Below are positions 9,591 through 34,573 of a stretch of 64,000 bases of DNA, one piece after another. The translations under genes and the position numbers were made by a program. The notes under the pieces were generated by a model. The model was not told the DNA's origin and searched no databases. It worked only from the letters and a program-made list of their open reading frames with translations. Source of the DNA: Liolophura sinensis (taxonomy: Eukaryota > Mollusca > Polyplacophora > Chitonida > Chitonidae); NCBI RefSeq assembly GCF_032854445.1, contig NC_088298.1:19425976-19489975 (forward strand). The letters are read 5' to 3'. Positions within the stretch are counted from its first letter, which is position 1. Every line of letters starts with the position of its first letter.

Positions 9591-9598
9591 TGACGTTA
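9591..9598 (+). repeat. Left 8-bp target-site duplication of the 19.9-kb unit
   Basis: TGACGTTA directly abuts the left terminal repeat and is found again at 29483-29490. A C precedes both copies, so the duplication could be read as 9 bp if the inverted repeats are taken as one base unequal. Confidence 0.88.
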
Positions 9599-10068
9599 GT
9601 AGTATAGAATGTGACTTAGGTGTCGCTTTGGGGATCCATTTTTTGTGGTTTTGGGGATCCGTTTTTTTGTGGTGATGTGGTGGTGACGTCACACCTGCCA
9701 GCCCGAAGGGCTGGTAGGTGTGACGTCACCCCTCAGTTGTGGGTTTTTTCCACGGCGCGGGGTGTATGTGTGTATAGACGAGGGTGATATAGTATAACCG
9801 TATAACAGTATAGGGAAAAAAAGAGCGAAAAAAAAGAGGCAAAACGTCGGCTTGTAAAGTCGAGTGGGACAGCTCGAAAAGAGCTCCCGGGCGCCAAAAC
9901 GGACCAATGGGTGAGCCGGATTTGCCCCAAACGGCCCAATGGGGGGGCCCGCAAAACGGACCAATCAGCGTGCGAGAAGAGGTTACGTAAGAAAAAAACG
10001 AACCAATCAGCGTGTGGTGAATTTCCGCGTGGATGGGTAGTATAACCATATAACAGTATAGGGCATGT
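9599..10068 (+). repeat. Left terminal inverted repeat
   Basis: Starts GTAGTATAGAATGTGACTTA. In order: two GGGGATCC motifs, a 49-bp palindrome (9682-9730), GTATAACCGTATAACAG, an A-rich block, AAAACGTCGGCTTGTAAAGT, several CCAAT boxes, TTACGTAA, AACCAATCAGCG, and a second GTATAACC. Homology with the right end stops near 10068. Confidence 0.9.
9682..9730. promoter_or_regulatory. Palindrome with paired CRE sites (left end)
   Basis: A 49-bp hairpin-forming sequence. Each arm contains TGACGTCAC, the cAMP-response-element core, with a GCCCGAAGGGC loop region. The same palindrome, inverted, is at 29351-29399. It could be a CREB/ATF site, a transposition protein site, or both. Confidence 0.65.
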
Positions 10069-11469
10069 AGGTGACATGTATAAGGGTGTACTCCCCAGCT
10101 CGCTGGCGCAGTGGCTGGTTGACTGACTGGCAACAATGTATACAATGTATTCAAGGCGCAGCCGATCAAAAACCACGTGTCCAAACAAAAACCACGTGTC
10201 AAAACAAAGCACAGCTGACAACAGTGTTGGCCGGACTGCAGGCTGACTGGTGGGTAGGATCGCTCAGCGTGTCTTTGCAACACTGTTCGCCCAGGAAGGC
10301 TCACTGCTGCAGGCAGAGGGTCGGTGTTATGAACCGTAGACCCGGTCGGTGGGATTTTTTTTTGGGTGATCTGCCTGTCTGTCTACCTGCTGGTTGTGGT
10401 AGGGATGGATGGATCGACACCACACCCAAACATGCACGTACACTGGAGACTCTACTATACTATACTCTACTCTACTCTATACTATATATAGGCGGTGTAG
10501 TGGAATAGAGCACAGTAGAGTATAGGGGGAAAAAAAAAAAGAGAAAAAACTTGGATCAGAAAATCTCGAAGCTTATAAGAAACTTGGAGGAGATCAATGT
10601 GATGGTATTTCACACATATTTTCAGCATCTATATTTTCACCAACATCCACATATTTAAGCAAGATATGTAACAGCCATTTCTTAAACGGTTAAATTCAAT
10701 TATTCTTTATCCACTAATCTTAACACACATATACACAAGACAACCAAATGACCATGAAGGAGAAAACAACTACCAGGTTATATTAAAAAAATTCTTTTTT
10801 CAATGTTTTATTCTTTTCTATCAAAAATCTGAAATACAAAAGGATATACCGAAACATAAACTTGCAGTACTTGCTATGGGGAACCTAACAAAGCCCATAC
10901 GTGTAAATGATAAAAATGATATTGAAAATAAATGATAAATGGGTGTGCTGAACAGCTAATTTGACTTTGAAAAGACCTGTCAAAGCAGGTGTCAAAATGT
11001 CTGGCTCTATTAGTAGAGATTGCCAAATGACCATCGAAGAGACCTAGCCTCTGTATAAAGTTAAGTTCCTACAATAGCAGAAGGTATACATTCGAAAAAT
11101 TAATCTGTTATTTTTAACAGAAAATCTGTGATCTGAATGATGCTGGAATGTATTGTGTTATTACAATATAATATTCTGCCATATTCAACATAATATACTG
11201 TTAGTCTAATGCTAATTTTATGTGGGATTAATAGAATACGTGTTTTATATTCATCTGATATTCATCAGTTTTCATCTGATATTTTACATCACATGTGACC
11301 CGTTACAACTCCGGGAACAAGAAGATTCGAAGAAGGAAGAAGTCATTTAACAAGTCCACTCTGATACGGGCATCTCGTCCAAGGTCACGCCCCTTTCTAG
11401 CCCAGGGTCATATTGGTTATCAGAAATGAGAGAAAAAAAACAGAAAAAAACCAGGTCATCCATGGCTTT
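10069..11469. other. Element interior between left repeat and RRM gene
   Basis: No recognisable coding gene. 10171-10206 has two CCACGTGTC E-box motifs. 10448-10530 is a TACTC/TATAC simple repeat. 11085-11260 is a decayed MITE-B. The 3'UTR of the RRM gene probably fills the right part, with a minus-strand AATAAA at 10807-10812. Confidence 0.45.
11085..11260. mobile_element. Decayed MITE-B relative
   Basis: Shares TTAATCTGTTA, GATGCTGGAATGTATT and TTAATAGAATACGTGT with the intact copy at 6699-6924, but the termini are not clear. Confidence 0.45.
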
Positions 11470-11564
11470 TCACAGGATCTGTTGGAAGCGTTCCACAGGT
11501 GGGTCGGGGTGGTTGGCATAGCTCGGCTGGGTGTAAGGACATGGTGGGCTAATGAACTCTAGGG
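11470..11564 (-). CDS. Last coding exon with TGA
   Basis: 95 nt, acceptor GTGCTGCAG; stop TGA at 11470-11472. Encodes LEFISPPCPYTQPSYANHPD and ends VERFQQIL. A partial inverted copy of this exon lies at 20890-20968. Confidence 0.82.
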
Positions 11565-14500
11565 CTGCAGCACAAAACAATAAACTCTGACAATTCTAGT
11601 TATGCAAATAGTTACTTTCCTGGCTAATATTCATTCAAAATATACTTGGGTAACCGCATGCGTGTATGTATGTGAGTATTTAACCATTCATTCTTCAAAC
11701 GAGTTGCTAACACACACAATACCTGATGCATGTCACAAGTGCTTACATAACGGCAAACAGCTCAGCTATGAATAGTAATTTCCAGCAATTAAGTTTTTTG
11801 CAGCATGTCTTATTACATATGATCCAGTAAAGAAGTTTTTTTATACTTTTCATATACTGTTACAAACATGTAACATGAGATAGCTCTTACTTTCTTAAAT
11901 CAAGAAGCAAAGCTGGTTCAGGAAAGAAACAAGACATCAAAGCATACAATGGCCACTTATTCAATGAGGTATCATAAGTGAAAAAGGGTAGAGCTTGGGC
12001 GGTGAAGCATTTGTTTGTCTTTCCTTTTTTATCTGGACACTAACTTTACCTTCAAGAGGCACACCTAACTGCATCAAAGTGTACTCTGCTGCAAAAACCT
12101 TTGCCCCCTCAACAGTAGGACACAGTTTATTTGGGGTAAATGGATTACGATTTGGAAACTGAGTACCGAGAGCTGGTATGGTGATCTGAAAGACAAATGT
12201 ACTTTACCATAGATTAACAATGTAAATGCCTAACATCAACTTCTACATATATATACTTCTACATGTATAAACCCCAACCACGACATTCTTTTTTCGATTT
12301 ACTTCAGATCAATTATTTTTATAAGATAATTTACTTCTTATTCTTTCTGGTACACATGGACATGATTAATTGTATAAATAAATAATAAAAAAAGTTACAT
12401 TCCAGCAAAAAGAACTTGATTCTTATCTCTTCAAACAAGTTTCTTATCAACATTTTGTTGAAACCTATGGTAGTACCTTGTACAAAAAGAGCTCTAAGAG
12501 CTGTTGGGCACCACTTCCACCCCTTCCCATGAGAGAATGAAGCTGGTATACAGGACTTCCCCATCCATTCTTCTGACAAAGGTCATCGAGCACCTATAGT
12601 GAACATCGTTACATGCATGACATTCTTGATTTACTGAAGCCTCACTAGGGCAATCGGGCTATAAATTAAAGGTAATTAGTAAAACAAAAAATTCTTCCAC
12701 AAAACAAAATCATGGTCAAAGGTTCAACACAGAGCCTTGCATTATGACAACTTTCAATGATAACAAAACAGCCAATTTTTTAGCTATTAACACACCTGAT
12801 TAACGAAATTTAATTCAAAACTCATTACATGTATAGGAAATATTAGATAAGAATTAGTTTCTAAGTATGTTCCCTGTTACTTCAAAGTTTAAACAAACAC
12901 CCATCTTCAACGAAACTGAACTAACTCACCTTCTGGTTAATTGCACAATCGGTTCATGTCTTTTAGTACGGCGTAGGCAGATTATAGATTTTAAGACTGC
13001 GTAATCCTTTAAGCATGCTTCAGAATAAGTTGCAATGCGCAACTTTTTAATGGGATATGGGACCGGAAACCTTCTGCATTGACAACGATACACACCTCCG
13101 CTGGATGTTTCCTAAAGCCACACCCCCTCAGCATCATCCCTCGGCCTCGCACAGGGCTTCTGATGCCCATGGGACCTCGCCCTGCCAACGCCCTGCTAAC
13201 AGTACAAAAAAGCACAAATATTCCAGCTATTTCATGGTAAAAATTATGTGACTGAGCCTTCTTAAAGTTTCTTCTTCCTGCTTTTCCTCCTGAGATGTTC
13301 ACATAAAATCAAATATATTGAGCTATTCAGGTTTGGTTGATGAAACTTAATGCTTCTTTGTATACTTACATGTAAGAAGCTCATAAAACGTTTTTTTGAG
13401 GACATTGCATGGATAACACATAAATGCAACTTCTTTCACGTCAAATGACTCTATCAACCACAATGGTAAAACCACTAAATATGGTAGTGTACCTTTCCTA
13501 CATGTATGCTGTTGAATGGAAAGCTACAGAGTGACAATTAAAGAATATAGGTCACAGGTGGTACGAAGTTCACATTAATTCTTGGCAAAAAGCAAGCCCC
13601 TACCATTCAATAAAATCGCCTGTTTTCAATAAAGCTATGCCTTGCACAGTCTTGCAAATATTTCTGCTCCGTGTGAAGCACCTTCCAACTGAAATCCGTC
13701 ATTACCTCATTTTGGATTTCAGTTGCCAAAGTAGACTTACCCATGTCATTTTTCTAGTTCTCACTCTGTACTCTGTATCCATTAGCATATCAGCAGGAGA
13801 GCTACAATACTGTACTTTGTAAAAACCACTTGCATATGCTTATTTACAGTTACAGTTATTACAGACAAATCATAAGGTAAAATTTAATCTTAGGTTATCT
13901 AAGATTTCATCATAGATGATCACAACTGAAATGATTTAAAACCAAAGACAAATATCCTGTTCCTGGTCTGAAGCACACAAATGACAGAGCATCTGACACT
14001 TCTGAGAACCCTGATATTAAACAGACAAACTGGACACACACGGTGGAATATGACAACCTATGCTCTTAATTCCGCAAATATTGTTCTAAGCTAACTGATT
14101 TTTATAAAAATTCCAAGAATACAACTCTATTCTGACTGCCAGATCATCTGCTGTGCTGGATTCTCATCTGTATTCTTATATCGGGTGAACAGAGTTGTGG
14201 ATTTCAGGCCAAAATAGTTCTTACCTTGCGGGTGGTGGAGACATCGGGTTGTAATACAATGGAGGCGAGTAACTAGGATCATAGCCATAGCCCTGAAAAA
14301 TTTGTCACAGTATCAAGTACACTTGTCATACAACCAAAGCATGCATAACCCCCTACCTTAACATACGAGGAACTCTTACCCTAACATAACAGAGCCCATG
14401 ACCTATAAATTCATGTACAAATCCAGGTCTTACTCCAATTTCCTCCATCCATAAACCTGATCGTGGTGGAATAATGTGACAATTCTTGAATATAGTATTA

Positions 14501-17500
14501 TACACTGATTAAAAAAAAGTTATTATTAAAGATTTTTAGCATGTAGTTCTAATCATTTTTTAATCAACGGCCTGAAAGGCTAAGGCATTATACTACACAT
14601 ATGAGGCCTTCAATATTTCTACACACTGGAAAATTTCAACATCATAAGCCATCAGTGGCATTCCCTACCCTTGCATACCGGATCTGAAACCCCTATGCTT
14701 ACATACCAGAAACTCTTATGCTGACATATGAGAACCCCTTACCCTTCCACTCGTGGCCCAGGTGAGTATAATTACTTGTGTAGTTCTGAGTGGATTGTCT
14801 CCCTAATAGTTAGTTTCTCTACATTGTGAAGGGGAATATACCTTCAATGGTTGACACAACAAATAATGTTATCCTACCACATGAGGAACTCTTACCCTGA
14901 CAGGTGATACTTCTTTCTGCTTCCAAGATTCCAACGCTTCCGGGCCTCTGTTGTATGCTCTATCAACCTCACCCAAGTGGCAGTCCTGATTAGCCTGCAA
15001 TAAAGAATTTTCATCAGTAGTAAAATTCAATTATTTACCTGATATAAATATATATAAATAATTTGGTTTTTATATGCAAAGCTTACTTCACACCTATCCT
15101 ACCACATGAGGAACTCTTACCCTGACATATGATACTTCTTTCTGCTTCCAAGATTCCAACGCTTCCTGGCCTCTGTTGTATGCTCTATCAACCTCACCCA
15201 AGTGGTAGTCCTGATTAGCCTGCAATAAAGAATTTTCATCAGTAGTAAAATTCAATTATTTACCTGATATAAATATATATAAATAATTTGGTTTTTATAT
15301 GCAAAGCTTACTTCACACCTATCCTACCACATGAGGAACTCTTACCTTGACACATGATACTTCTTTCTGCTTCCAAGATTCCAACGCTTCCTGACCTCTG
15401 TTGTATGCTCTATCAACCTCACCCAAGTGGCAGTCCTGATTAGCCTGCAATAAAGAATTTTCATCAGTGGTAAAATTCAATTATTTACCTGATATAAATA
15501 TATATAAATAATTTAACTAGGATCAAAATCATAGCCATAGCCCTGAAAAATTTGTCACAGTATCAAGTACACTTGTCATACAACCAAAGCATGCATGAAA
15601 GCAGATTCGCTCAAAGGGTTGAACAGCTGACTTGCTTCCACTGTAGGTACTTGACCTATAAATTCATGTACAAATCCAGCCAGATATATGAGAACCCCCT
15701 ACCTTAACATATGAGCAACTCTTACCCTGACGTAACAGAGCCCACAACCCTAACATACAAGGAACTCTTACCCTGACATAACAGAGCCCACTACCCTGAC
15801 TGATTGATTAGCCTGCCATAAAGAATTTTCATCAGTGGTAAAATTCAATTATTTACCTGATATAAATATATATAAATAATTTAACTAGGATCAAAATCAT
15901 AGCCATAGCCCTGAAAAATTTGTCACAGTATCAAGTACACTTGTCATACAACCAAAGCATGCATGAAAGCAGATTCGCTCAAAGGGTTGAACAGCTGACT
16001 TGCTTCCACTGTAGGTACTTGACCTATAAATTCATGTACAAATCCAGGTCTTACTCCAATTTCCTCCATCCATAAACCTGATCGTGGTGGAATAATGTGA
16101 CAATTCTTGAATATAGTATTATACACTGATTAAAAAAAAAGTTATTATTAAAGATTTTTAGCATGTAGTTCTAATCATTTTTTAATCAACGGCCTGAAAG
16201 GCTAAGGCATTATACTACACATATGAGGCCTTCAATATTTCTACACACTGGAAAATTTCAACATCATAAGCCATCAGTGGCATTCCCTACCCTTGCATAC
16301 CGGATTGGAAACCCCTATGCTTACATACCAGAAACTCTTATGCTGACATATGAGAACCCCTTACCCTTCCACTCGTGGCCCAGGTGAGTATAATTACTTG
16401 TGTAGTTCTGAGTGGATTGTCTCCCTAATAGTTAGTTTCTCTACATTGTGAAGGGGAATATACCTTCAATGGTTGACACAACAAATAATGTTATCCTACC
16501 ACATGAGGAACTCTTACCCTGACAGGTGATACTTCTTTCTGCTTCCAAGATTCCAACGCTTCCGGGCCTCTGTTGTATGCTCTATCAACCTCACCCAAGT
16601 GGCAGTCCTGATTAGCCTGCAATAAAGAATTTTCATCAGTAGTAAAATTCAATTATTTACCTGATATAAATATATATAAATAATTTGGTTTTTATATGCA
16701 AAGCTTTACCCAGATATATGAGAACCCCCTACCTTAACATATGAGGAACTCTTACCCTGACGTAACAGAGCCCACTACCCTAACATGCGAGGAACTCTTA
16801 CCCTGACATAACAGAGCCCACTACCCCGACATATGAGGAACTCTTACCCTGACATATGAGAACCTCCTACCCAGATATATGAGAACCCCCTACAGATATA
16901 TGAGAACAACCTACCTTAACATACGAGGAACTCTTACCCTGACATAACAGAACCCCCTAGCCTACCACATGAGGAACTCTTACCCTGACAGATGATACTT
17001 CTTTCTGCTTCCAAGATTCCAACGCTTCCTGGCCTCTGTTGTATGCTCTATCAACCTCACCCAAGTGGCAGTCCAAGGCCTTCAATATTTCTACACACTG
17101 GAAAATTTCAACATCATAAGCCATCAGTGGCATTCCCTACCCTTGCATACCGGATCTGAAACCCCTATGCTTACATACCAGAAACTCTTATGCTGACATA
17201 TGAGAACCCCTTACCCTTCCACTCGTGGCCCAGGTGAGTATAATTACTTGTGTAGTTCTGAGTGGATTGTCTCCCTAATAGTTAGTTTCTCTTCATTGTG
17301 AAGGGGAATATACCTTCAATGGTTGACACAACAAATAATGTTATCCTACCACATGAGGAACTCTTACCCTGACAGATGATACTTCTTTCTGCTTCCAAGA
17401 TTTCAACGCTTCCGAGCCTCTGTTGTATGCTCTATCAACCTCACCCAAGTGTCGGTTCTGATTAACCCGCAATAAAGAATTTTCATCAGTAGTAAAATTC

Positions 17501-20014
17501 AATTATTTACCTGATATAAATATATATAAATAATTTGGTTTTTATATGCAAAGCTTACTTCACACATACACGACAGATGAGTTTACAATGGTGAAAGAAA
17601 GCTGATGGGGGAAAAATGTGGACAGGTCCCGGTTTCCGACCAAATACCTTCCACAAACTCTCAATTTGAAAACATTTGAACTCTTCCAACTTAACACAGT
17701 TTACTCCACATACTATGTTGCAAACAAACTTAACCTATGGAAGAGGATGATCGCTGGGCTGTCCTGAATTACACATTTGAGACGATTTTCACGATGTGGC
17801 AGCAACATTGACCAAATGATTTCTTACCTGCTCTCTTCCTTTTGCCCATGCAACCTCAATGTAAGCACCTTCAACATTCATTCCTAGAGAGAAATATACA
17901 TGACTTATTATATAACGCCTTCTCACCTTGATCTTCCTTTAATTTTATTTCTTGAAAGAATGAGGACGTAGTACAAATGCTACACATCAGTTAAAAAAGT
18001 GTTCCAGATACAGTCTACCTAGAGTTTCTCCCAAAGAAAACTTCTTATTTTCTCAAAAAATTCCCGGCAAAATGGTCCCGGGATCTTGGGTTCAATATTC
18101 AGCCTATTACATGTAACTGTTGAAACAACTTCCCTCTTTTAAACATTTGATCATTTAATGTTCAACAGCTTCTTTTCATGCTGAATGATTTATTGATTGG
18201 CCCGTTTTTACGCTGTACTCAAGAATATTTCACTTATACGACGGTGATCAGCATTATAGCATGAGTAAACCAGGCAGAGCCTGGTGGAAACCCACAACCA
18301 TTCACAGGTTGCTGGCAGACCTTCCCATCCATGTTGAATGAGGGGTGATATTAAGTTAATAATAAGCTACCATAAAAGCCAATTTATACAGAAATTTATC
18401 CAAACAAATATTCTAGAGAATGCCCACACCTTATGTTTTGAAGTGTGAATTTATACTGTATGTGCTCTTCTGTAAATATATGTAAGTCTGTCCCATAAAT
18501 GTGAGCCATTTCCGGTACGTAGTTGGAGTATCAAACATCCTATAGGCAAGCGATGCGTCAGTTATTCACTGTTTCATCTTAATTACTTGAGTTAGCATGT
18601 TTTCCCAATATTCTCCCTTAGATGTTGGTGGATATTCTATCATGTAATTTTCTGTAAACATCAATCAAGTGGAAAAACTAGTTAAAACATACTAATGTGC
18701 CACACGCGACTGACAAACGAAAATGAACTTTTACTTATCAGAAACAGAACTATCCGAATGGAAATATATCACACTCTATAAATGCACACAAAAACTACAT
18801 TCGCCTACCGATAGAAAAAATATACTTCCGTTAATGCATTTGTATTTATCCAAAACCAATCAACACAACTCCAAAATAAATAATTTTTTCTCACCATTAA
18901 GTTTAGCCATGGCCTTGATAGCAGCATCTTTGTCGCTAAAACGAATGAATGCATAATCTCTTATCTTCTTTACGCTTCCCACAGCGTTGTCTCTTCCCAC
19001 AACTTGACTGCACAGCTTTCTAATTTTGTCTTCTGTAGTTGTCGACATAAGGTTCCCCACGTGCAAAACCACCTTCTGTAATACAAATATGCACAACATA
19101 AATATTATTCCAGTCATACAAATATGCACAATATTAATGTAAAAGATGACGACGCATCAGTGCTTTTCAGCCATAAGTGACTATATTAATTATCACCACA
19201 GCCTCCCATACAGAAGAAATCACTTGTTGCAAGAAATGTTGCGCGCGCGCACACCACCCTCTCATGACAGAAAATGCAACAAATGCTGCACGCGCGCACA
19301 CCACCTTCTCGTGACGGAAAATGAAAGAGCAGACGATAAGAAATTGCAAGAAGTTACGCGACATTTTACACATATCCACCCACACAAAATACCCCTCTGA
19401 TACAAAAAATTTTAGTTCAATTATAACTTTTCAAATAACGGCTTACATAAAGGTCAAATTTGTTTGGACTGTGGTACCTACTCGTGAATTTTACAACTAA
19501 CCAACCGATATTTCCGACGTCTGGTGCCGTCTACATTGGCAATTAAATGTGTTTTAATTTGCAACGAAGAGACAACCAAAAAAGTTTCTATAGTGGAAAT
19601 TACATGACTTACAGAAGAGTTGCGAACACACAAGAGCTGGCCTTTACGAATTTCGTAGTTGTGAAGCTCCTTTACCGCTTGATTCGCGTGTTCTTTGTTA
19701 GTGTATGTAACGAATCCATATCCTCTATGGGGTCCAAAGCGGCGGTTCGTTACGAGTTTCAGTTCGTAAATCTTTCCTATCTTCTCAAATACTGGAACGA
19801 GCTCGTCTTCGTAACAGTCTTTTGGAATACCTCCGACGAAAATTCCACAATCCTTTAAAGGAGCCCGGCTTTCCCAGTCGGGAGGTGGACCGCCGTACTT
19901 TCTTTCCCATTTTTCTCGCCGTATGGTGTATCCTGTTCTCGCCGTAAGGTTCAGCAAGGCTTCGTTTGGCTCCCGGGTCACACGACATGGCAAAGCCTCC
20001 TCCGCGGACGCCAT
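11470..20014 (-). CDS. A1CF/RBM46/RBM47-family RNA-binding protein lacking RRM2
   Basis: Exons in transcript order: 19613-20014, 18895-19075, 17828-17883, a 99-nt repeated exon (six copies, see separate entry), 14225-14292, 13096-13195, 12477-12593, 12050-12185, 11470-11564. All join in phase with GT/AG junctions. With one repeat copy the product is 417 residues, plus 33 for each extra copy. Parts: RRM1 (RTGYTIRREKWERKYGGPPP and CGIFVGGIPK), RRM3 (VKKIRDYAFIRF), an RG-rich linker, then a dsRBD-like C terminus (LCQKNGWGSPVYQLHS, LFLYK, ITIPAL, AAEYTLMQLGVPLE). Vertebrate relatives carry three RRMs and act in mRNA editing, stability and germ-cell control. RRM2 is absent: the exon after RRM1 is RRM3, in phase, and 19076-19606 holds no RRM-like sequence. 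The gene lies wholly inside the 19.9-kb unit. Family call is firm; the precise orthologue is not. Confidence 0.9.
12050..12185 (-). CDS. dsRBD-like exon 2
   Basis: 136 nt: ITIPALGTQFPNRNPFTPNK then AKVFAAEYTLMQLGVPLE. Acceptor GTCTTTCAG, donor GTAAAGT. Matches the ITIPAL...PFTPPKL...AAEYTLQ segment of the family. Confidence 0.92.
12477..12593 (-). CDS. dsRBD-like exon 1
   Basis: 117 nt, 39 codons: VLDDLCQKNGWGSPVYQLHS through LFLYK. Acceptor CACTATAG, donor GTACTA. Matches the A1CF C-terminal double-stranded-RNA-binding region (CQKYNWG...YQLHS...LFLYK pattern). Confidence 0.9.
13096..13195 (-). CDS. RG-rich linker exon
   Basis: 100 nt. Acceptor is CTGTTAG|CAG|, a NAGNAG pair that could give one optional residue. 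Encodes ALAGRGPMGIRSPVRGRGMM and then RKHPAE. Donor GTGTGT is weak, but it is the choice that restores phase 0 for the next exon. Confidence 0.7.
14225..14292 (-). CDS. Tyr/Pro-rich linker exon
   Basis: 68 nt, acceptor TTTTTCAG, donor GTAAGA. Encodes GYGYDPSYSPPLYYNPMSPP, a low-complexity linker; ends in phase 2. Confidence 0.85.
14896..14994 (-). CDS. Repeated exon, intact copy (last in transcript order)
   Basis: 99 nt, acceptor TTATTGCAG, donor GTAAGAG. Starts ANQDCHLGEVDRAYNRGPE and ends KQKEVSPVR. Identical in protein to the copy at 16518-16616. Confidence 0.85.
15121..15219 (-). CDS. Repeated exon, intact copy
   Basis: 99 nt, intact acceptor and donor. Starts ANQDYHLGEVDRAYNRGQE and ends KQKEVSYVR; differs from the 14896 copy at three residues. 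Confidence 0.83.
15346..15444 (-). CDS. Repeated exon, intact copy
   Basis: 99 nt, intact acceptor, donor GTAAGAG after AAG. Starts ANQDCHLGEVDRAYNRGQE and ends KQKEVSCVK. Confidence 0.83.
16518..16616 (-). CDS. Repeated exon, intact copy
   Basis: Same sequence as the 14896 copy because it sits in the 685-bp duplicated block (14400-15084 and 16021-16706). Confidence 0.83.
16984..17074 (-). pseudogene. Repeated exon, truncated copy without acceptor
   Basis: 91 of 99 nt. The donor is intact, but the first 8 nt and the acceptor are replaced at a duplication junction at 17074/17075, so it cannot be spliced as an internal exon. Confidence 0.8.
17368..17466 (-). pseudogene. Repeated exon, diverged copy with mutated acceptor
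   Basis: The first copy met by the transcript. The acceptor AG is changed to GG (complement of 17467-17469). The frame is still open with four or five substitutions relative to the other copies (for example NQNRHLGEV). Confidence 0.72.
17828..17883 (-). CDS. Exon finishing RRM3
   Basis: 56 nt, acceptor TCTCTCTAG, donor GTAAGA. With the preceding split Gly codon it encodes GMNVEGAYIEVAWAKGREQ, the last beta strand of RRM3 and the typical E/WAK tail. Confidence 0.9.
18189..18345 (-). mobile_element. SINE fragment, minus strand
   Basis: Complement of the SINE 3' body (TACTCAAGAATATTTCACTTAT at 18217 onward, then the AACCTGYRAATGGT region). Lies in an intron of the RRM gene. Confidence 0.72.
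18895..19075 (-). CDS. RRM3 exon
   Basis: 181 nt, acceptor TTGTATTACAG, donor GTGAGA. It encodes KVVLHVGNLMSTTTEDKIRK and VKKIRDYAFIRFSDKDAAIK; RNP2-like VLHVGN and RNP1-like DYAFIRF are present. It matches the third, not the second, RRM of the family. Confidence 0.92.
19613..20014 (-). CDS. First coding exon: N terminus and RRM1
   Basis: 402 nt, 134 residues, starts ATGGCGTCC and ends at donor GTAAGT (19607-19612). The family signature KYGGPPPDW (39-47) precedes RRM1; RNP2-like CGIFVGGIP (56-64) and RNP1-like RGYGFVTYTN (97-106) are intact, followed by YEIRKGQLL. Confidence 0.93.
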
Positions 20015-20099
20015 ACCTACACCCTACTCCACCCTGCTGGTCCCACTGCTGACGAACTAGAAGTAGGCAAACTGGACTTTGCCACGCACGTGCGTGGAC

Positions 20100-20582: not shown

Positions 20583-20819
20583 TGGCATGTGTTTATACTT
20601 CAGTGAGTGTTCGGCTATACCAACTATCTGGGTGATTGAAAATGACCCGAATCCAATCTACTATCGCTGACATCGATTTGACAACAGGCATTGTCCTGTG
20701 TAATATTCAAAAATAGAAAAAACAAATTTTGTTTTCGCGTGGTTCTAGCTTCTGCATTGTCTTCTAGAACAGCTTATCATGTTCCAGGCAAACTTTCGCA
20801 CTGCGACGTCCAAGACAGA

Positions 20820-20968
20820 CCAATGAGCGCGACAAGGAGTAAAACGTCGGCTTGTAAAGTCGAGTGGAGCAGCTCCAACAGCTCCATGCTATGCCAGCTA
20901 TGCCGACCACCCCGACCCACCTGTGGAACGCTTCCAACAGATCATGTGATCAACCATGGATGACCTAC
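20820..20968 (+). pseudogene. Inverted copy of the RRM gene's last exon joined to a terminal-repeat fragment
   Basis: 20841-20875 is the terminal-repeat module AAAACGTCGGCTTGTAAAGT...CGAGTGG in left-end orientation. It is followed at about 20890-20968 by AGCTATGCCGACCACCCCGA...CTTCCAACAGATCATGTGA, a near copy of the last exon 11470-11564 including its stop, plus CCATGGATGACCT from the 3'UTR. It is a fragment with no open gene around it, and sits upstream of and opposite to its parent. Confidence 0.75.
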
Positions 20969-21267
20969 GGTACATATATATTGATCCGGCATTTCAATCT
21001 TTCAGACATGGATATACATGTATAACTTAGATTAGGGCCTGGAAACTAAACACCTGCCTAAACATGGCTCGCATGAGAAAGGTTTGTATTGTAATGTGTT
21101 ATAATAAAGACCGTATATTTTGACAAATAGAGTTAATTTTTTTTCTTTTTTTCATTTTGAAATTTCAGTTTAATTTTCTATCATCTGTATCGATCAATTA
21201 TACTGCTGGTTTAATATACAGAACCTGTTAAGTATACATGACACGTCTGAGTAAAAGTCAGACTTAC

Positions 21268-21322
21268 CTGGTGACCACACCCGCCTTGATTACTATAGGC
21301 TTGATTCTGGGATCGACCATGG
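21268..21322 (-). CDS. TBCA: Exon matching the N terminus of tubulin-binding cofactor A (fragment)
   Basis: 55 nt. ATG at 21318-21320 in CCATGG context, encoding MVDPRIKPIVIKAGVVTR, followed by a strong donor GTAAGTC. The family start is MADPRV..IKIKTGVVKR, so the match covers the first coding exon. TBCA captures beta-tubulin during folding. No later TBCA exon was seen between 20100 and 21267, and the exon lies inside the 19.9-kb unit, so this looks like a captured gene fragment. The sequence just upstream (TTCCTTACAG on the minus strand) could be used as an acceptor. Confidence 0.6.
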
Positions 21323-21875
21323 CTGTAAGGAATCAGTGACAAATCCGAACGCTATCTGAAGACGCCGCGTTTGGGCTTACTCTTCAGGAGATGCACTTAC
21401 AATTTCTGCTTTTCTGACTGCTGTTGTTGTAGCGATGAAAGCGGCTCCTGCAAGATGGCAACAGTACCGAACAGCAGACGTTCATGATAAGACCGGAAGT
21501 ACATCAACAACAGACGGAGCAGTTACCTCCCGTATTCCATATTATACTGATAGAGTAAAGCGTCCGCAGAGGCCCACTGCATCCACACGTGAACAAATAC
21601 ATATACATGGGGAATGAAAACCATTACTGAAAACAGAGCTAAAAAAATACTGATTTCTGGACTTCTGATAACGTTTGTTTCACCCATAGAGCACACATAA
21701 AAGTGTACTTGTTTGGGTGTTTATTAAGTCTCGGATTAAGGCAGTCTATCTTAATCCCAGATTGAACTCACTTGAACTCTTTGATAATTCCTGGTACAAA
21801 TTATCCAGTTTCTGAGTTAAGAAAACAAGTTTTTAGAACTATAATCTATATGTTAATCTACTACATGTATATGAC

Positions 21876-22100
21876 ATGTGACCCAGGAACCTCTCCACAC
21901 TGGGGTCGCTGTGAGTCCAGTTCATGCTGGCTTCCTTTCGTGCCGTACATGGGAAGGTCTTTCAGCAACCTGCCCATGGTTGTGGGTGTCCTCTGGGTTA
22001 TGCACAAATTCCTCCCACCAAAATGTTGGTCGCCTTTGTATAAGTAAACATTTCTTGAGTATGACGTACACCACCATTGCCCAATCAAATCAATAAATGA
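21876..22100 (+). mobile_element. SINE copy
   Basis: TGACCCAGGAACCTCTC through GAGTATGACGT and a short (AATA) tail; diverged. It lies within the 19.9-kb unit. Confidence 0.75.
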
Positions 22101-22236
22101 ATAGTAAGCAAGGCAGGGATGTCCATACCACGACCATGTTAAAACTTCCAAAGATAATTTGTTCATTCCTGTAATGTTGTGTTGGTGTTAAAAAAGTGTT
22201 CATAATAATAAAATAAAAAATAAAAAAAGCACTTAC

Positions 22237-22569
22237 CTGGCCCTGTTCCCCACGTTGATGGACACGCCAGTCCCACAATCGGTAAAAAGTTTTACCACAG
22301 GCAATCGCACACACGCTCGTTGTTTTTTTCCATGCTCCCGCTGGCAGCGCACCAAATGCTCCCGTCGGGAAAACGCCCGCCCGCAGGTTGGGCAGGTGAA
22401 CCCTTTTTTCTGGGGTTGGTGGTGTGCATGGTGGTGAGGGGTGGTGGTGCGTCTGCTGGTGACGCAGCCAGTCGTCCCACCGACTGAAGTCCCTGGCGCA
22501 CATCATGCAGGTAAACGGCTTCTTCTTCTTCCCTTCACCTGTATGATTTCCATCTCCATCTCCAACCAT
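22237..22569 (-). pseudogene. C2H2 zinc-finger exon with two frame breaks
   Basis: From the ATG at 22567-22569 (A at -3, G at +4) to a strong donor GTAAGTGC. Finger 1 is a good C2H2: FTCMMCARDFSRWDDWLRHQ then TH, preceded by a TGE..KPF-like linker. Finger 2 (FTCPTCGRAFSRREHLVRC, Cys where the first His is expected) is in a second frame. Finger 3 (CAIACGKTFYRLWDWRVH) is back in the first. The shifts lie near an A6 run (about 22407-22412), and near an A7 run and a GTGTGT repeat (about 22310-22330), so either decay or sequencing indels could explain them. A terminal-repeat-type promoter module lies just upstream (22575-22760). Confidence 0.6.
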
Positions 22570-22574
22570 TCTCG

Positions 22575-22767
22575 CGCGCGGATAGGTCCGTTTTGGGGGC
22601 CGTCCATTGGTCCGTTTTGGGGGCAAATCCCGCTCACCCATTGGTTCGTTTTGGGCGACAAAGAGCTCTTTTCGAGCTGTCCCACTAGACTTTACAAGCC
22701 GACGTTTTGCCTCTTTTTTTCACTCCCACTACCACCACTGCCCCTATACTATACTCTATTATACTAC
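22575..22767 (-). promoter_or_regulatory. Internal copy of the terminal promoter module (ahead of the zinc-finger exon)
   Basis: Shares GGTCCGTTTTGG, CCCATTGGTTCG, AGAGCTCTTTTCGAGCTGTC, CTTTACAAGCCGACGTTTTG and the C/T-rich block with the right terminal repeat. On the minus strand it gives several CCAAT boxes upstream of the ATG at 22569. The ATG-side border is close to the coding start. Confidence 0.65.
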
Positions 22768-23540
22768 CCCAATAAACATGAATGTACTGGTCCAATTCCG
22801 GGACTTAACCGGTTTGTTACGGCAGTAGGAGAGTTTAACAAGGCCAGTGCTGAACCATTTCCGGCTTGCCGCTATTTTGCCAGTGTTATGATCGCCATAT
22901 CTGGCCCAGCGCTGGCCCAGTTTAGTTTTACCGATACTCAAAGCATGTACTGACCCACCCTCGGGCCATTATTGGCTGGCCATTATTGAGCCATTAAATA
23001 TCGCCGTAACTTGCCCGTTGCTGACCCAATGAAGCTTTGCCGTTATGGAGACTTTAAAAAATCCCGTCAAGTCCCACGAAGCGCAAAATTTTCTTTAGAT
23101 AAGTTTGCACAGGCCTGGGTCCAAAGAAATAAAAAGAATAATATTGAGTTGTGTTTTGTTTTTTGTAGGAAAAGCAATGGATTTGATTGGGGATAAGCAT
23201 TCTGGGTCTTCACTATATCTGTTTAGGACCAGTTATGAGCAAAGAGTACATTGGCCCAATTCTAAATGTACTGTACTGGCCCTATTCTTACAAAGATTGG
23301 CGCTGTATTGGCCTAATAACTTTATGCAACTCTGGGCCAATCAATGTATTACTACACTGGTCCAATGCATGTTTAAAAATGGATACATAATGGTGAAATT
23401 CCCAAACCAGTACTGGACCAGTGCCGCGCCACTGTGCAAAACGTGTATTGGTCCGATAATTGTTTCCCCAAATGGCCCAATTGAATACGTGTCAGAGTGC
23501 CAATATTGGTCCAATGCTTTTATGTTTCTTGGGACACTCC
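22768..23540. other. Insert dense in TGGCCCA/TGGTCCAAT motifs
   Basis: It interrupts a terminal-repeat copy: the left piece ends near 22767 and the right piece (GTATACACACCCCGTCGTGG) resumes near 23547. The 0.8 kb between repeats TGGCCCAAT, TGGTCCAAT and TACTGG many times without a fixed period. No open gene was recognised. Confidence 0.45.
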
Positions 23541-23640
23541 ACTCTAGTATACACACCCCGTCGTGGAAAAAACCCACCACCACCACTACCTGACACACAC
23601 CTGACACGTCACAAGTGTGACGTCACTCCCAGCCATGCGC
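23541..23640. repeat. Partial copy of the outer terminal repeat
   Basis: TACACACCCCGTCGTGGAAAAAACCC and then GTGTGACGTCACTCCCAGCC parallel 29305-29375 of the right end, including one CRE (TGACGTCA). The true outer end is missing. Confidence 0.6.
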
Positions 23641-23989
23641 AAATAAGGCAAACACAGCAGAGCAGATTAAAATGACTGCATCTTGGGAAGGACAGTCCAA
23701 ATTACCGAAAAGCTCCTGATTAACCTTTGAATGACGAAGGCAATTCAAGAATGAATAACCATTTATGCGCATGTCTCATAAATTCTTGAATAATGTTGAG
23801 TCGTACATGTAGCGATTGGACCATATGTGATATAGGGGACAACAACAATAAATCTGTACTTCCACTTCACTGCCAAATGTTAACAAGAATGTGAAATAAC
23901 CCACCTTCCAGCTACAGGTTTTCAAATGACTTAATGCTTGAATTAAAAAGTATACATATGCAAAAATAAAACAAGCATCATTACGTTGT

Positions 23990-24100
23990 CTTTTTTACCT
24001 GAGACACGCGTAGTGATATCACCCATGACCTAACCACTCCCATCACCATCCGCCCACGCTAAATAGTCCCCCTTACATAACTCGTTCTCGCGCACTTATC
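23990..24100 (-). promoter_or_regulatory. First-exon-like segment with partial promoter module, copy 1
   Basis: On the minus strand: TAAGGGGGACTATTTAGCG, then ATGGTGATGGGAGTGG, and a GTGTCTCAG|GTAAAA donor. It shares over 60 bp with 24850-24960, so the two are paralogous 5' exons. No downstream exon was identified. Confidence 0.45.
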
Positions 24101-24239
24101 TACATGGAGTAGAAAAAAACACATCCACATGTCACCTACATAATTACACGCAGTAGACCATATCACTTCAACGAGTCGTCTATAACCTAAAAATTTTTTT
24201 ATACATAATACATAGGAACCATCCAGATAGGTAGGTAGC

Positions 24240-24850
24240 CGTGGCTTGTCAGCTGTGGTTGATCATGCGTGGTTAATCACAGCCCGACTGGTTGGTAACA
24301 CTGTATACAAGACCGTCTACGGTGAACAGCACGGTCGGTTGGATGCTATGCCTGCCTGGCTGACAACAATGTTTAGGCAGGCTGGCAGGCTGGTCGTCGC
24401 TCAACAACCGTGCGGCTCGCCGGACCGATTTCGTTGACGTCCGCGCTCCGCCACAGGCCAGGTGGCACGTTTGCCGGATTCTCTGGTCGGGGGAGACCCC
24501 TAACATATACACTACAACGTGTGCGTTACACTGAATCCTTATCCATTAAAATCCATATCACTGCTTTGATATAGGATATACTCCTACTGTGGCTTGTTGC
24601 AAGCAAAAGTGTAAGTATATCTGTCAAAAAAAATATCTATTTCCCAGCAACCCTTATCAAGGCTAAAACCCAACAGCTCTTGTCAGGGCTAATCATTTAC
24701 CTATCATTTACCACCATGTATCGGAGTAGGCGGGGGCCTGGGAATGTGGTGTGAATGTCTGTGGTGAAGTTTGGAGCAGCTTGTCGTCTATGGCTAATAA
24801 AAAAAAAAATGCACCAACCTGTATGGTTCTCAAAAAATACGACGCGCCAT
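24240..24850. other. Element interior, no gene recognised
   Basis: 24250-24480 is CG-richer, with repeated GGCAGGCTGG motifs but no convincing reading frame. 24797-24808 is an A-run after GGCTAATA. Nothing else is seen. Confidence 0.4.
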
Positions 24851-25112
24851 TTTTTTTTGTACCTGAGACACGCGTAGTGATACGTAACCTCACCACTCCC
24901 ATCTCCATCCGCGCACGCGAAATAGTCCCCTTACAAAAGCGAAAATAGTCCCCTTACATAACCGATTGGTCCATTTTTTCTTACGTAACCCCCTTCTCGC
25001 GCCGACTGGTCTGTTTTGCGGGCCCTCCATTGGTTCGTTATGGGGTAAATCCCGTTCACCCATTGGTCCGTTTTTGGCGACCAAGAGCTGGCCCACTCAA
25101 CTTTACAAGCCT
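24850..25112 (-). promoter_or_regulatory. First-exon-like segment with promoter module, copy 2
   Basis: 24963-25112 repeats the terminal module (GATTGGTCC, CTTACGTAAC, CCCATTGGTCCG, AACTTTACAAGCC). Below it on the minus strand are ATGGAGATGGGAGTGG and a GTGTCTCAG|GTACAA donor, as in the 23990 copy. Confidence 0.55.
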
Positions 25113-25189
25113 ATTTAGTGTGCGAGCCAAACATATGATGTCTGACAGTGTGCTGATATAACACAAAACTTGTTTAGATTTCGACCGCG

Positions 25190-25245
25190 GCCCGGACAGG
25201 AAGCCAGCATGAGCTGGACTTGAACTCTCAGTGATTGCATTCGAT
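25190..25245 (-). mobile_element. SINE head fragment
   Basis: GGAAGCCAGCATGAGCTGGA then CTTGAACTC (complement of the B-box region). Confidence 0.6.
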
Positions 25246-25880
25246 ATCTATTTAACAAATGTTTTCTGTATTGTTTTATTTTCACGTGACAATTGTGTTA
25301 GATAGTCCATTTGCTTTTTTTTTTGTTTCAGATTTAATGCCGAACGCAACAATACTGTACATATGTACGATGTTGGGTTGGAAGTAAACCACCGGCGTTC
25401 GTTAAGTCACCCACAGGCTTTCCCGCACACGACCGGCAGATATTGGTAAAAGGCTAGTGATCCATACGGTCATACATCATTTGAAGAACACAAGTCATAA
25501 GTAGAAAACTATTCGAAATTTTACGTGTAAATATGTCCCTTCACCTGGTTGCAGTTAGCTATACAAGACATATCATTATAAAATAAGTTTCGAAATAATA
25601 AATTCACTTTAATAATATACTACTACAGTAAAATCTGCACACTCATAACCTGATATTAAAACAAATGGAATTCATATGAAGAATTTTACTAATGCGACTT
25701 ATCTGCATGCATCATTCAAAAGCCAGTTTAAAGACTTAAGAGTCTAATAACCGTTAACACTCTTTGTGTGACTGAAAAGAGTGGAAATGTGGGATAAACT
25801 GTGCCTTTTTGTCCTGTTGTTAAACATTTTCATGGCAGAAAATGACCCTGAACAAAATAAGGTATCTACTCTAATAAAAC
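25246..25880. other. AT-rich spacer within the unit
   Basis: No gene seen. 25385-25450 (CACCCACAGGCTTTCCCGCA) may be a fragment of another dispersed repeat. Confidence 0.35.
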
Positions 25881-25899
25881 CGAATTGAGATACATGTGA

Positions 25900-26440
25900 A
25901 AAGTTGAATTACGCCCAAACTAATCTTGTTGTCAGTCACTTCTTCATTGCCACGGTTGTCAGTCACTTCTTCATTGTCACGGCTATAACCCTTGTTTCCA
26001 GTTACTTCCTTATTGTCACGGCCATAACCCTTCTGATCAGACAACTTTTCTTGACGGGAGTTATAACCCTTGTGGTCAGGCAATTCTTTCTGCCTGCTTT
26101 CATAACTCATGTGATTAGACAACTCTTCTTGGCGTGGGGTTATAACCCTTGTGGTCAGGCAATTCTTTCTGCCTGCTTTCATAACCCTTCTGATCAGACA
26201 ACTCTTCTTGGCGGTGGTTATAAACCTTGTGGTCAGGCAATTCTTTTTGCCTGGTATCATAACCATTCTTGGCGGTGATCATAACGATTGCGATCAGGCA
26301 GTTCGTTATACCCGCAGTTTTAATCCTTGTCATCACATAAATCTTCCTGGTCATGGTTATAACCCGCATGATGACGCAGATCTTCTTGGCGGCGGTTACA
26401 ATCCTTGTAATCAGGCAATTCCTTATAACCATGATTAAAA
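25900..26440 (-). repeat. Coding-like tandem repeat, about 39-bp unit
   Basis: On the minus strand about a dozen units encode variants of KGYxSRQxxLxDx (for example KGYESRQKELPDH and NRRQEDLRHHAGY). The pattern (Gly-Tyr, Arg-Gln-Glu, Leu, Asp) is kept while third positions vary, which suggests past selection as protein. The frame is broken by at least one in-frame TAA and by shifts between 26250 and 26330. The left end degrades to RDNEEVTDN. No parent gene recognised. Confidence 0.55.
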
Positions 26441-26501
26441 GAAAACACAAAAAAAACCGGGGATGGATTCCATAGTAAGGGAACAGTATTATTAGTATTC
26501 T

Positions 26502-26769
26502 TTACAGCAATGTACAGGTCTGTAACACGGAGCGTTGATAGACCTCTGTTAACGTGGGACGAGCAATCTCTACGTAATACGCTTGAATAGGTCGGGAATC
26601 CTCGACATGCTGACAGACGTCTTCAGTGTACGCTTGCAGCACCTGCAGTCGTCCCCCGTTCACCCTACCATCCGCAAACATACTATGAAGTACACTTGTG
26701 TAGCTTTGCAGGTCGGTGACGACAGCGACCCAGTCTTTCCATTGCGGCGTTGTACGGAGCTTCGCCAGG
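26502..26769 (-). CDS. Terminal exon of unknown gene, weakly cullin-like
   Basis: 268 nt from acceptor TGTCTTTTCTAG to TAA (26502-26504). 89 codons are open, with GC-rich coding style unlike the AT-rich surroundings. Segments include LAKLRTTPQWKDWVAVV, FADGRVNGGRLQVLQAYTED and IARPTLTEVYQRSVL. The spacing of the last two recalls the cullin N-terminal repeat (E-R-x-G-E-x-V-D-R-x-L-L and F-x(3)-L-x(2)-T-x(2)-Y), but the match is loose. The acceptor phase equals that of the RHIM exon upstream (27041-27137), so the PC4 exon could splice to either. Confidence 0.45.
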
Positions 26770-26845
26770 CTAGAAAAGACATAAAGAAGACACCGTCGTC
26801 ATTCTAATGCCATCACCGACCGAACCCTAGCCACATCAATCAAAA

Positions 26846-26856
26846 CGATAGATAGG

Positions 26857-26888
<32 letters not shown>

Positions 26889-26889
26889 C
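26846..26889 (+). repeat. (GATA)n microsatellite
   Basis: About ten GATA units with one GGTA variant. Confidence 0.9.
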
Positions 26890-27040
26890 TATCCCTTCAC
26901 CAACAGGTAAAGACAATAACCAACACCAAAGACCAGGGTCGTCAACCTGAAAACTTTTTTTTATTTATTTTTTCGAACTCGAACAGTGAACAAACGAATG
27001 AACGAATAAATACATGCTGTAAGTGTCCATTATTTTGGTG

Positions 27041-27137
27041 TCACGGTGAGAAATGTCTCGTGATGACGATTGTATCGCCAATATGAAAGTCCTGACACTG
27101 GTCAATGTTTATAACGCGCACCACCCTAGTCATCTTC
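27041..27137 (-). CDS. RHIM-like terminal exon
   Basis: 97 nt, acceptor TTTTTTTACAG (perfect polypyrimidine), 31 residues then TGA. The motif INIDQCQDFHIGD has the INI..C upstream half and IGD core of RHIMs, with His in place of the usual Gln of the tetrad. A low-complexity explanation is unlikely because the composition is mixed. Confidence 0.55.
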
Positions 27138-28579
27138 CTGTAAAAAAACACACATAGGTAAACGCAAAACGAGAATGTATGAAGGGAAAAACAAAACAAA
27201 CAAAAAAAAAAAAGCTGGGTAAGGGTGGTGCGGTTAAAACAAAAACACACTCACTCGGTCATCGTAGCCTGGGTGGCCTGGGTAGCCTGGGTAGGCTGGT
27301 TGGTTTGGTTGTTAGGCCGGATTGTAGGCTGCTTGTCAGGTGCAGCGAGGTTGTTGGTTGTCATCAAATACTCCACGTACATCTGGGCGAATGCCGGGTT
27401 CGATTTGTTGATCGGCGTCTCATTTAAAAACTGCCGCAGTTGGTCTTTCACACTCTTCTCCACAGCCCACGGGAGGGAGGCTGCCTTACGGGCCTGGCGC
27501 ATGAACTTGGTCAACACAGTTCCCTCTTTCAGGTAACGCATACGGGCCTCGTCCACGATACTCAGGGTCAGCTCTCGGTTCTCCAGCAAGGGGGGCCGGG
27601 GAGGGGATGGATCGCTCGCGGTGTTGGTGGATTGTCGACCGTACACATCGCGCTGTAACTTGAGGAGGTGGGGTTGGAGAGCTACATCGTAAGCTTGCCA
27701 CAGCAAGGCTGTTAGCGCCGTCTCAAGCTCAGGGTTTAACGGGTCCGCCTTTTCCACCTTTTCCACTGGGATGTCGGGGATGGTGGGGGTTGCAGTAGCA
27801 GCAGTAGTCGCATCATCGGCAGTCTCCCCATCAGCAGTCGTCACAGCAGCCGTCACAGCAGCGGTCAAAGCAGCACTCATAGCAGCATTCACCTCACCGC
27901 CCGTCTCACCAGTCTCTCCAGTCTCTCCAGTCTCTTCAGTCTTCCCCTCCTCCGTTTCCATCATCTCCATCTCCATCCCCGGCTCTTGGGGGTCTTGGGG
28001 GTCTTGGGGCTCTTGGATGTCGTCGTTATCACCAGCCTCGATCACCACCAGCACCAAGGCGTCGATGTCGGGGATGGCCTGGACTAGTTTTTGCCAGTAA
28101 GTCCAGTACTTGAGCGTGATACCCTCACTCGTCGGGTAGAGTCGACCGTTCGGCTGGTAGGCTCGCCATTTCTTCACATGAACGTACAGGACACCCTCCG
28201 AGTTCCTCAGCGTGGACAGAAAGTACCCGTTGGAGAGTGGCTCCCGCACAGGTAAACCGACCTCAGGTAGATCAGCAGCCAGGGTCTTGAGCCGAGTCCA
28301 CCCCACCCCGTCAAGCCTGACGCGTTTGGGTGGAGCGTTCGGGTCTGTCGGTGATTGGCAAATCTCAATCGTCTCGTCTCTACACACCCCCACCCACAGC
28401 CAGGGGGCCAGCTGTAATTTGGCAAGAACCTCGCTGGGTAAGGGCAGGCACACCTTCCTCTTCTTCTCGGAAGGTTGTTGTTGTTGTTCGGCTATGGTGG
28501 ATAGCCGGGTAGGTACAGACGCTGAGCGTTTCATCCTGATGGCAGCATGCAGGGGGTTCACGGTGGTGGAGCGTTTCAT
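27041..28579 (-). CDS. PC4-like protein with a C-terminal RHIM-like motif (two exons)
   Basis: Exon 1 is 27255-28579 from the first in-frame ATG (28577-28579, G at -3). Exon 2 is 27041-27137, TGA at 27041-27043. Unspliced, the frame stops at once (27251-27253), but GTGAGT at 27254-27249 and TTTTTTTACAG at 27138 make a 117-bp intron that joins in frame, giving 473 residues. In order: a basic N terminus with KKRKV; two stretches patterned like PC4/p15 single-strand DNA-binding transcription cofactors, the clearer one holding GVLYVHVKKW, GRLYPTSEGITL and VQAIPDID; an acidic Glu/Thr/Gly tract; an Ala/Thr-rich linker; a helical part (YLKEGTVLTKFMRQARKAAS); and the exon-2 tail VINIDQCQDFHIGDTIVI. 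The tail resembles the RIP homotypic interaction motif (hydrophobic-x-I-G-D core), used in amyloid-type innate immune signalling. Minus-strand AATAAA is at 26960-26969. Function is inferred from pattern only. Confidence 0.6.
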
Positions 28580-28930
28580 CTCACCAGGTAGGTAGGTAGG
28601 TAGGTAGGCAGGTAGGTACAGGTAGGTAGGTCGTGTAGCAGTCTCTTCTCTTCTCTTCTCGTCTCTCGGCAGGTCAGTAGGTCGGGTCGTCAGCAAGCAG
28701 GTCGGCAGGCAGGCAGGCCGGTAGAGCGTCAGGTGCGTCTGAGGCTGCCGGTCGCTGTCTTCACCGGCTTTTATCCTATCCACGCGGAAATTCACCACGC
28801 GCTGATTGGTTCGTTTTTTTCTTACGTAACCTCTTCTCGCACGCTGATTGGTCCGTTTTGCAGGCCTCCCATTGGGCCGTTTTGGGGCAAATCCGGCTCA
28901 CCCATTGGTCCGTTTTGGCGCCCGGGAGCT
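28580..28930 (-). promoter_or_regulatory. Promoter and 5'UTR of the PC4/RHIM gene
   Basis: Minus strand: four CCAAT boxes within about 105 bp (plus-strand ATTGG at 28805, 28847, 28871 and 28904), TTACGTAA (28822-28829), then a TATA-like GGATAAAAG near 28768-28776. A 5'UTR with a (CCTA)n microsatellite (28586-28632) precedes the ATG at 28579. The module is the inner copy of the right terminal repeat. Confidence 0.6.
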
Positions 28931-29022
28931 CTTTTCGAGCTGTCCCACTCGACTTTACAAGCCGACGTTTTGCCTCTTTTTTTTTCTCTCTTTTTACCCT
29001 ATACTGTTATACGGTTATACTA
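28777..29022 (-). repeat. Inner tandem copy of the right subterminal module
   Basis: The module from CCTATCCACGCGGAAATTC to GGTTATACTA occurs twice in tandem, 28777-29022 and 29024-29290, nearly identical. The left end has only one full copy. Confidence 0.85.
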
Positions 29023-29482
29023 CCTATCCACGCGGAAATTCACCACGCGCTGATTGGTTCGTTTTTTTCCGCTGATTGGTTCGTTTTTTTCTTACGTAAC
29101 CTCTTCTCGCACGCTGATTGGTCCGTTTTGCGGGCCCCCATTGGGCAGTTTTGGGGCAAATCCGGCTCACCCATTGGTCCGTTTTGGCGCCCGGGAGCTC
29201 TTTTCGAGCTGTCCCACTCGACTTTACAAGCCGACGTTTTGCCTCTTTTTTTTCGCTCTTTTTTTCCCTATACTGTTATACGGTTATACTATATCACACT
29301 CGTCTATACACACATACACCCCGCGCCGTGGAAAAAACCCACAACTGAGGGGTGACGTCACACCTACCAGCCCTTCGGGCTGGCAGGTGTGACGTCACCA
29401 CCACATCACCACAAAAAAACGGATCCCCAAAACCACAAAAAATGGATCCCCAAAGCGACACCTAAGTCACATTCTATACTAC
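29012..29482 (-). repeat. Right terminal inverted repeat
   Basis: Reverse complement of the left repeat with only scattered differences, a C run that differs by a few bases, and about 18-20 extra bp (a second AACCAATCAGCG unit at about 29052-29082). Ends ATTCTATACTAC at 29471-29482. The palindrome with two CREs is at 29351-29399. Confidence 0.9.
29351..29399. promoter_or_regulatory. Palindrome with paired CRE sites (right end)
   Basis: Inverted equivalent of 9682-9730, with TGACGTCA in each arm. Confidence 0.65.
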
Positions 29483-29490
29483 TGACGTTA
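29483..29490 (+). repeat. Right 8-bp target-site duplication
   Basis: TGACGTTA, identical to 9591-9598. Confidence 0.88.
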
Positions 29491-34510: not shown

Positions 34511-34573
34511 AATACAGTTAGTAATTCAGTAAGTACACACTGTAAAAGTTGAGTAATTATATCGCCATGTATA

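Follow-up and report, generated by a model that had tools for sequence, protein, structure and literature searches.

A predicted non-autonomous Polinton/Maverick derivative carries a captured RBM46/A1CF-type gene in the genome of the chiton Liolophura sinensis

Vertebrate Mavericks are described, in the accessible part of PMC8097293, as bearing (AGT)2//(ACT)2 end motifs and 6-bp duplications. The available portion of PMC10680173 reports cargo genes on nematode Mavericks, including wosp proteases and krma kinases, and whole-gene cargo on Mavericks is already known from that source. The accessible text of PMC9529142 calls RBM46 specific to germ cells in mice and necessary for the fertility of flies and fish, and that of PMC9871953 likewise describes it as germ-cell-specific. 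In the open-licence literature, represented mostly by titles and the opening lines of abstracts, we found no description of an RBM46-type gene captured by a satellite Polinton, and PMC11071296 makes no mention of RRM, RNA recognition motif, PC4, Bcl, chiton or mollusc. As far as the available text on nematode Mavericks goes, the chiton element resembles them in being a Maverick with a host-derived gene, but differs from them as a predicted core-less satellite with an RBM46-type RNA-binding gene, whose donor and satellite are found in one genome.

The window analyzed here is a 64-kb stretch of DNA (C4:19425976-19489975), in which the element extends over ~19.9 kb from 9598 to 29483 (Table 1). 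Its near-identical inverted ends, proposed in a preliminary description made from the letters of the window, were borne out with 97% identity over 357 bp and 93% over an overlapping 248-bp block. The terminal inverted repeats are long (about 470 bp), and left and right ends are unequal in length because a 269-bp unit of the right one is duplicated in tandem (28800-29291). The termini, AGTAGTATAG...CTATACTACT, are of the AGTAGT...ACTACT type, and the ends, formerly set at 9599 and 29482, are better placed one base further out. A perfect 8-bp target duplication had also been proposed. The 8-bp string TGACGTTA indeed lies outside both ends alike, but the flanks of 18 inverted pairs, window copy included, rule out an 8-bp duplication: an exact 6-bp duplication adjoins the AGTAGT-type termini in 17 of these pairs, E17 being the sole pair without one, and the 8-bp reading is possible in the window copy only (1/18). 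The two extra bases are a chance match. E03 has two right ends (positions 4533 and 6838 of the extracted L015) with a matching duplication at the outer one only, where its duplication was scored.

The genome (609,464,459 bases in 632 contigs) was searched with the left end of the window element, and the best 40 of 202 candidates were scored, so that the number of pairs is a lower bound. The search recovered at least 17 other inverted end pairs and 3 single ends; ten of the other pairs were fetched as separate pieces and seven as ends only. Other paired copies of the ends, as foreseen from the window, thus exist, but with duplications of 6 bp. Among the best candidates scored, PolB matches were enclosed by 12 of the 18 pairs and RRM gene matches by the other six, namely E00 (the window copy), E01, E03, E04, E05 and E15; PolB and RRM matches never occurred in the same pair (0/18, best candidates scored in both searches).

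Mobility genes were found in related pairs with matching ends: the ORFs of E02 gave Pfam matches to DNA_pol_B_2 (PF03175), to rve and Chromo, and a marginal one to Adeno_IVa2, which corresponds to PolB and an rve/chromodomain integrase. The PolB, integrase, ATPase and capsid-candidate proteins match all six PolB-type copies read (E02, E06, E07, E08, E16 and E17), with E07 retaining 27% of PolB and 69% of the capsid candidate. The capsid candidates, a minor-capsid one among them, are proteins that we take to be such, a double jelly-roll capsid protein being characteristic of Polintons/Mavericks. The capsid candidate had no match by sequence in the PDB. None of the PolB, integrase, ATPase and capsid candidates had a match in the 64-kb window (tblastn, E 1e-3) or in E01, E03, E04 and E05, in agreement with the earlier statement that the interval holds no recognizable transposase, polymerase, integrase or capsid gene. 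Judged by its sequence, the window element appears to be a non-autonomous (satellite) derivative of a Polinton/Maverick and not a full Polinton, since it has no PolB or integrase of its own, which PolB-type Polintons with ends 88-95% identical to its own do have. It is like a Polinton/Maverick, a virus-like self-synthesising transposon, in its AGTAGT...ACTACT termini, 6-bp duplication and long inverted ends, in the spacing of 13-25 kb between paired ends in the chiton genome and in having relatives with PolB, integrase and ATPase. Unlike a full Polinton, the window copy lacks core genes, and about 8.6 kb of its 19.9 kb are host DNA.

Long blocks of alignment (about 91-99.7%) cover most of the window element in the four RRM-type copies E01, E03, E04 and E05, which have different 6-bp duplications. 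These alignments and the different duplications exclude chance, and the proposal that the whole interval moves as one piece was supported. A 2.7-kb piece of the cargo is 100% identical (rounded) in E15, E03 and E01 and 98% identical in E04 and E05. In one copy (L036, C406, 1000-9928), the cargo has the reverse orientation with respect to the right arm. Near the end there is a GDSL-lipase-like ORF related to one in E16, which has a Pfam match.

The right arm is found whole in E02, E06 and E07 (about 93-95%) and partially in E08, E16 and E17. The shared stretch ends 121 bp upstream of the probable start codon of the E02 integrase, and a breakpoint at 26429 inside the integrase gene was rejected for this reason. 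Two ORFs of this arm were examined. The 98-aa ORF, whose amino acids are identical in E02, matched Bcl-2 in Pfam with an E value of 0.0031, below the curated cut-off, and all 45 PDB matches listed for it were Mcl-1 (best E 0.032). The 442-aa ORF received no name in the Pfam search; it has at least two database relatives among the best 8000 candidates, one of them from the same species, and may bear a resemblance to PC4.

Table 1 Features of the window element and its flanks, with positions counted from the first base of the window.
Feature	Position	Strand	Basis
Left 6-bp target site duplication GACGTT	9592..9597		Flanks of 18 pairs compared
Left terminal inverted repeat, begins AGTAGTATAG	9598..10063	+	End comparison and copies
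510-bp stretch present in E01 and E03, missing from E04 and E05; insertion or deletion	10943..11452		Copy alignment
Captured host segment: RBM46/A1CF-type gene, introns, about 2.7 kb of 3' flank	11453..20092	-	Donor C6:64136550-64145164
Last exon found by tblastn	14179..14298	-	In-frame TAA at GCAAG/GTAAGA
Six copies of the 34-aa exon (exon 4)	14905..17469	-	tblastn and splice sites
Individual 34-aa exon copies	17368-17469, 16984-17073, 16527-16619, 15346-15447, 15121-15222, 14905-14997	-	
Exon 3	17828..17884	-	tblastn and splice sites
Exon 2: RRM3	18893..19069	-	tblastn and splice sites
Exon 1: start codon and RRM1; donor GTAAGT	19613..20014	-	tblastn and host comparison
Displaced inverted Polinton-arm piece: C2H2 zinc-finger ORF and inner end-repeat sequence	22093..22767	-	ORF and copy alignment
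766 bp aligned in none of the four other RRM copies read (0/4)	22768..23533		Copy alignment
Right arm common to PolB-bearing Polintons	26429..29483	-	Copy alignment
98-aa ORF, weak Bcl-2/Mcl-1 similarity	26502..26798	-	Pfam and PDB search
442-aa conserved right-arm ORF	27254..28579	-	Copy and database comparison
Right terminal inverted repeat with internal 269-bp tandem duplication	28775..29483	-	End comparison and copies
Right 6-bp target site duplication GACGTT	29484..29489		Flanks of 18 pairs compared

The host DNA of the element derives from one locus on C6. The host-type gene at C6:64144698 has RRM1 and RRM2 in one open exon and is 97% identical to a database protein; among the matches listed, no right-arm, integrase or PolB match lies within 27 kb of it. 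Host and window share the 3' flank with 89-93% identity, a 1294-bp block of intron and exon 2 with 86.7% identity, and also 78 bp upstream of the start codon. The left capture limit was first set by the start of the query and then checked with host bases beyond both limits: those just outside the left limit (L072) had no match in the window, and those beyond the other limit (L071) match it only at dispersed SINE-like repeats. A retrocopy origin of the RRM gene was rejected, as it has introns, splice sites and 3' flank in common with the host locus; the deletion of RRM2 and the array of 34-aa exons likewise reject a recent capture without change. A single capture was inferred because the copies share the same host flank.

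On the minus strand of the element, tblastn identified exons for RRM1 and RRM3, a short exon, the sixfold 34-aa exon and a last exon. Splice sites of the window copy are canonical, except that two of the six exon-4 copies have no AG acceptor at the expected place. The in-frame TAA of the last exon may be part of a splice donor; it is also present in the host gene, which rejects a mutation of this exon on the element. RRM2 is deleted at 19614/19617, where 290 bp of host sequence are missing from the window copy. The complete intron-bearing RRM gene of the preliminary description therefore stands with regard to its introns and exon series, but not to its domains. Like the RBM46/A1CF/DND1 family, the cargo has RRM1 and RRM3 homology; unlike this family, it has lost RRM2, so that two of the three RRMs of RBM46/A1CF are present, it carries the 34-aa exon six times and is multicopy on mobile elements. 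The cargo protein is predicted to be a derived, truncated member of the RBM46/A1CF family. E00, E03, E04 and E05 each have six copies of its 34-aa exon and E01 has three; the exon was not detected in the part of the C6 host locus that was read. Sequence comparison of exon 1 with the PDB gave Syncrip, hnRNP R and DND1 as the best matches, and two related predicted L. sinensis proteins are named probable RNA-binding protein 46 and APOBEC1 complementation factor-like.

Across the genome, 23 loci were kept from 39 matches, comprising 22 non-host RRM copies and the host gene; five weak matches (≤46% identity) were dropped as other RRM genes (C1:64379663, C3:14182623, two on C13 and one on C2). The host 3' flank lies within 27 kb of every one of the 22 non-host copies. 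A Polinton marker is nearby in 20 of them among the matches listed: the right-arm ORF within 27 kb in 16 copies (two of these, on C3, share one match), integrase as the sole marker in two further copies, and PolB within 13 kb in another two (C9:23357823 and C13:7065982). Among the same matches, C3:14892254 and C3:21653131 have none. Nine of the 22 copies are located on C3, a 27.5-Mb contig accounting for about 4.5% of the genome. RRM2 sequence is retained in two C1 copies and in C3:8518012. Because some copies retain RRM2 sequence and some adjoin PolB or integrase, the order of events suggested by the sequences is capture, then deletion of RRM2, then loss of the core genes in the satellite line. 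On C3, three tandem integrase copies (94-95% to the query) adjoin a broken RRM copy (C3:25203596-25208635).

Selection on exon 1 was analyzed in the 17 of 22 non-host copies in which it is open; C9b, C1a, C1b, C3h and L069 (broken) were left out as partial or broken. Omega was 1.93 for the 17 element copies (p=0.0026 against 1), 1.81 with the host added (p=0.003), 2.83 for the E clade (p=0.016) and 1.73 for clade2 (p=0.065), with p values that are approximate because the tree was fixed and the null was taken from a grid of kappa. As controls, the right-arm ORF gave an omega of 0.57 (nine copies; below 1, p=0.004), the ATPase 0.80 (six copies; difference from 1 not significant) and the minor-capsid candidate 0.51 (five copies; p=0.054). 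Pairwise dN/dS of exon 1 averaged 0.98 from host to elements and 1.18 among elements, and reached 4.98 among seven E-type copies, at a dS of only 0.005. In exon 2, host and E00 differ at 4 of 36 synonymous and 15 of 141 nonsynonymous sites, a ratio near 1. Intron 1, compared over its first 160 bases, shows 2.2% difference among 16 element copies and 4.7% from the host, and the mostly intronic block shared by host and window differs by 13%, close to the exon 1 dN of 0.153 between E00 and host. Amino-acid change in exon 1 appears not to be held back on average, with the frame open in most copies, and may run above neutral. The signal is modest, with other yardsticks nearer to neutral.

Altogether, we consider it highly probable that the window element is a satellite Polinton which captured a host gene, lost its core, is presumably mobilized in trans and carries a remodelled cargo that may aid it in germ cells. 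By sequence, a Polinton lineage of the chiton captured 8.6 kb of host DNA, with the RBM46/A1CF-type gene, its introns and 3' flank, possibly through an error of replication or recombination. A descendant lineage, represented by the window copy and four others, lost the PolB, integrase, ATPase and capsid genes but retained ends, right arm and captured gene. It moved after this loss, since near-identical copies with separate 6-bp duplications are found at several sites and on several chromosomes. Mobilization presumably occurs in trans, with polymerase and integrase of full Polintons acting on the satellite ends. On the element, the cargo was remodelled by deletion of RRM2 and by the sixfold 34-aa exon, with exon 1 changing at a roughly neutral rate or faster. 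The RRM1 and RRM3 protein most likely helps the element in germ cells, putatively by interfering with or borrowing host RNA regulation. As a single genome contains the donor locus and the limits of the capture together with the remodelled gene and the scars of insertion, the route can be traced stepwise by which a virus-like transposon would take up a whole intron-bearing host gene and spread it as a core-less satellite, and the selfish use of captured germ-cell genes becomes testable.

How far the cargo serves the element is the point on which the strongest competing explanation differs. The RRM gene could be a passive passenger, an accidental capture with little or no expression that drifts unconstrained and brings the element no gain. 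The mean host-to-element dN/dS of exon 1, the exon 2 ratio and the existence of broken RRM copies fit such drift, while the open first exon in most copies, the splice sites kept by the window copy and an omega above 1 in three of the four sequence sets tested speak against it; we regard this explanation as quite plausible, if somewhat short of probable. A bolder conjecture is that the satellite has turned the RBM46-type gene into a diversifying, RRM2-less tool that would redirect or compete with host germ-cell RNA regulation and so favour transmission of the element. We hold this to be rather unlikely; if true, the element would be a mobile agent that manipulates the germline and competes with its host in evolution.

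Other explanations concern the origin of the structure itself. Multiplication of the RBM46-type gene by segmental duplication, with Polintons inserted alongside, would account for the crowding of nine copies on C3, some of them close together; it is contradicted for the six pairs whose Polinton ends, flanked by duplications of their own, enclose the gene, and in view of the Polinton markers near most copies we think it very improbable in general. Similarly, the displaced Polinton pieces and insertions in the interior of the window element might recall a full Polinton that inserted at this site and decayed in place, its core genes deleted and host DNA gained later. However, four other copies, with different 6-bp duplications, share the core-less structure, so that the element moved in that state, and decay at the site is very improbable. 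Hardly credible, finally, is capture of a host gene by a Pack-MULE-like element or another cut-and-paste transposon that makes 8-9 bp duplications. The likeness to Pack-MULEs raised in the preliminary description consists in host DNA between inverted ends, and the window copy alone permits an 8-bp reading; the chiton element differs from them in its 6-bp duplication, its Polinton relatives and its whole intron-bearing gene. The terminal motif, the duplication length seen in nearly all pairs and the PolB, retroviral-type rve plus chromodomain integrase, ATPase and capsid candidates of relatives with matching ends point to Polinton/Maverick instead.

Outside the satellite Polinton, the window contains tandem repeat arrays at 34573-34941, 34989-35587, 38358-38823 and 46273-47246. 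A dispersed SINE-like repeat family is present at 2622-2889, 35762-36029 and further positions, and one of its copies lies within the element, in an intron of the RRM gene (18206-18331).
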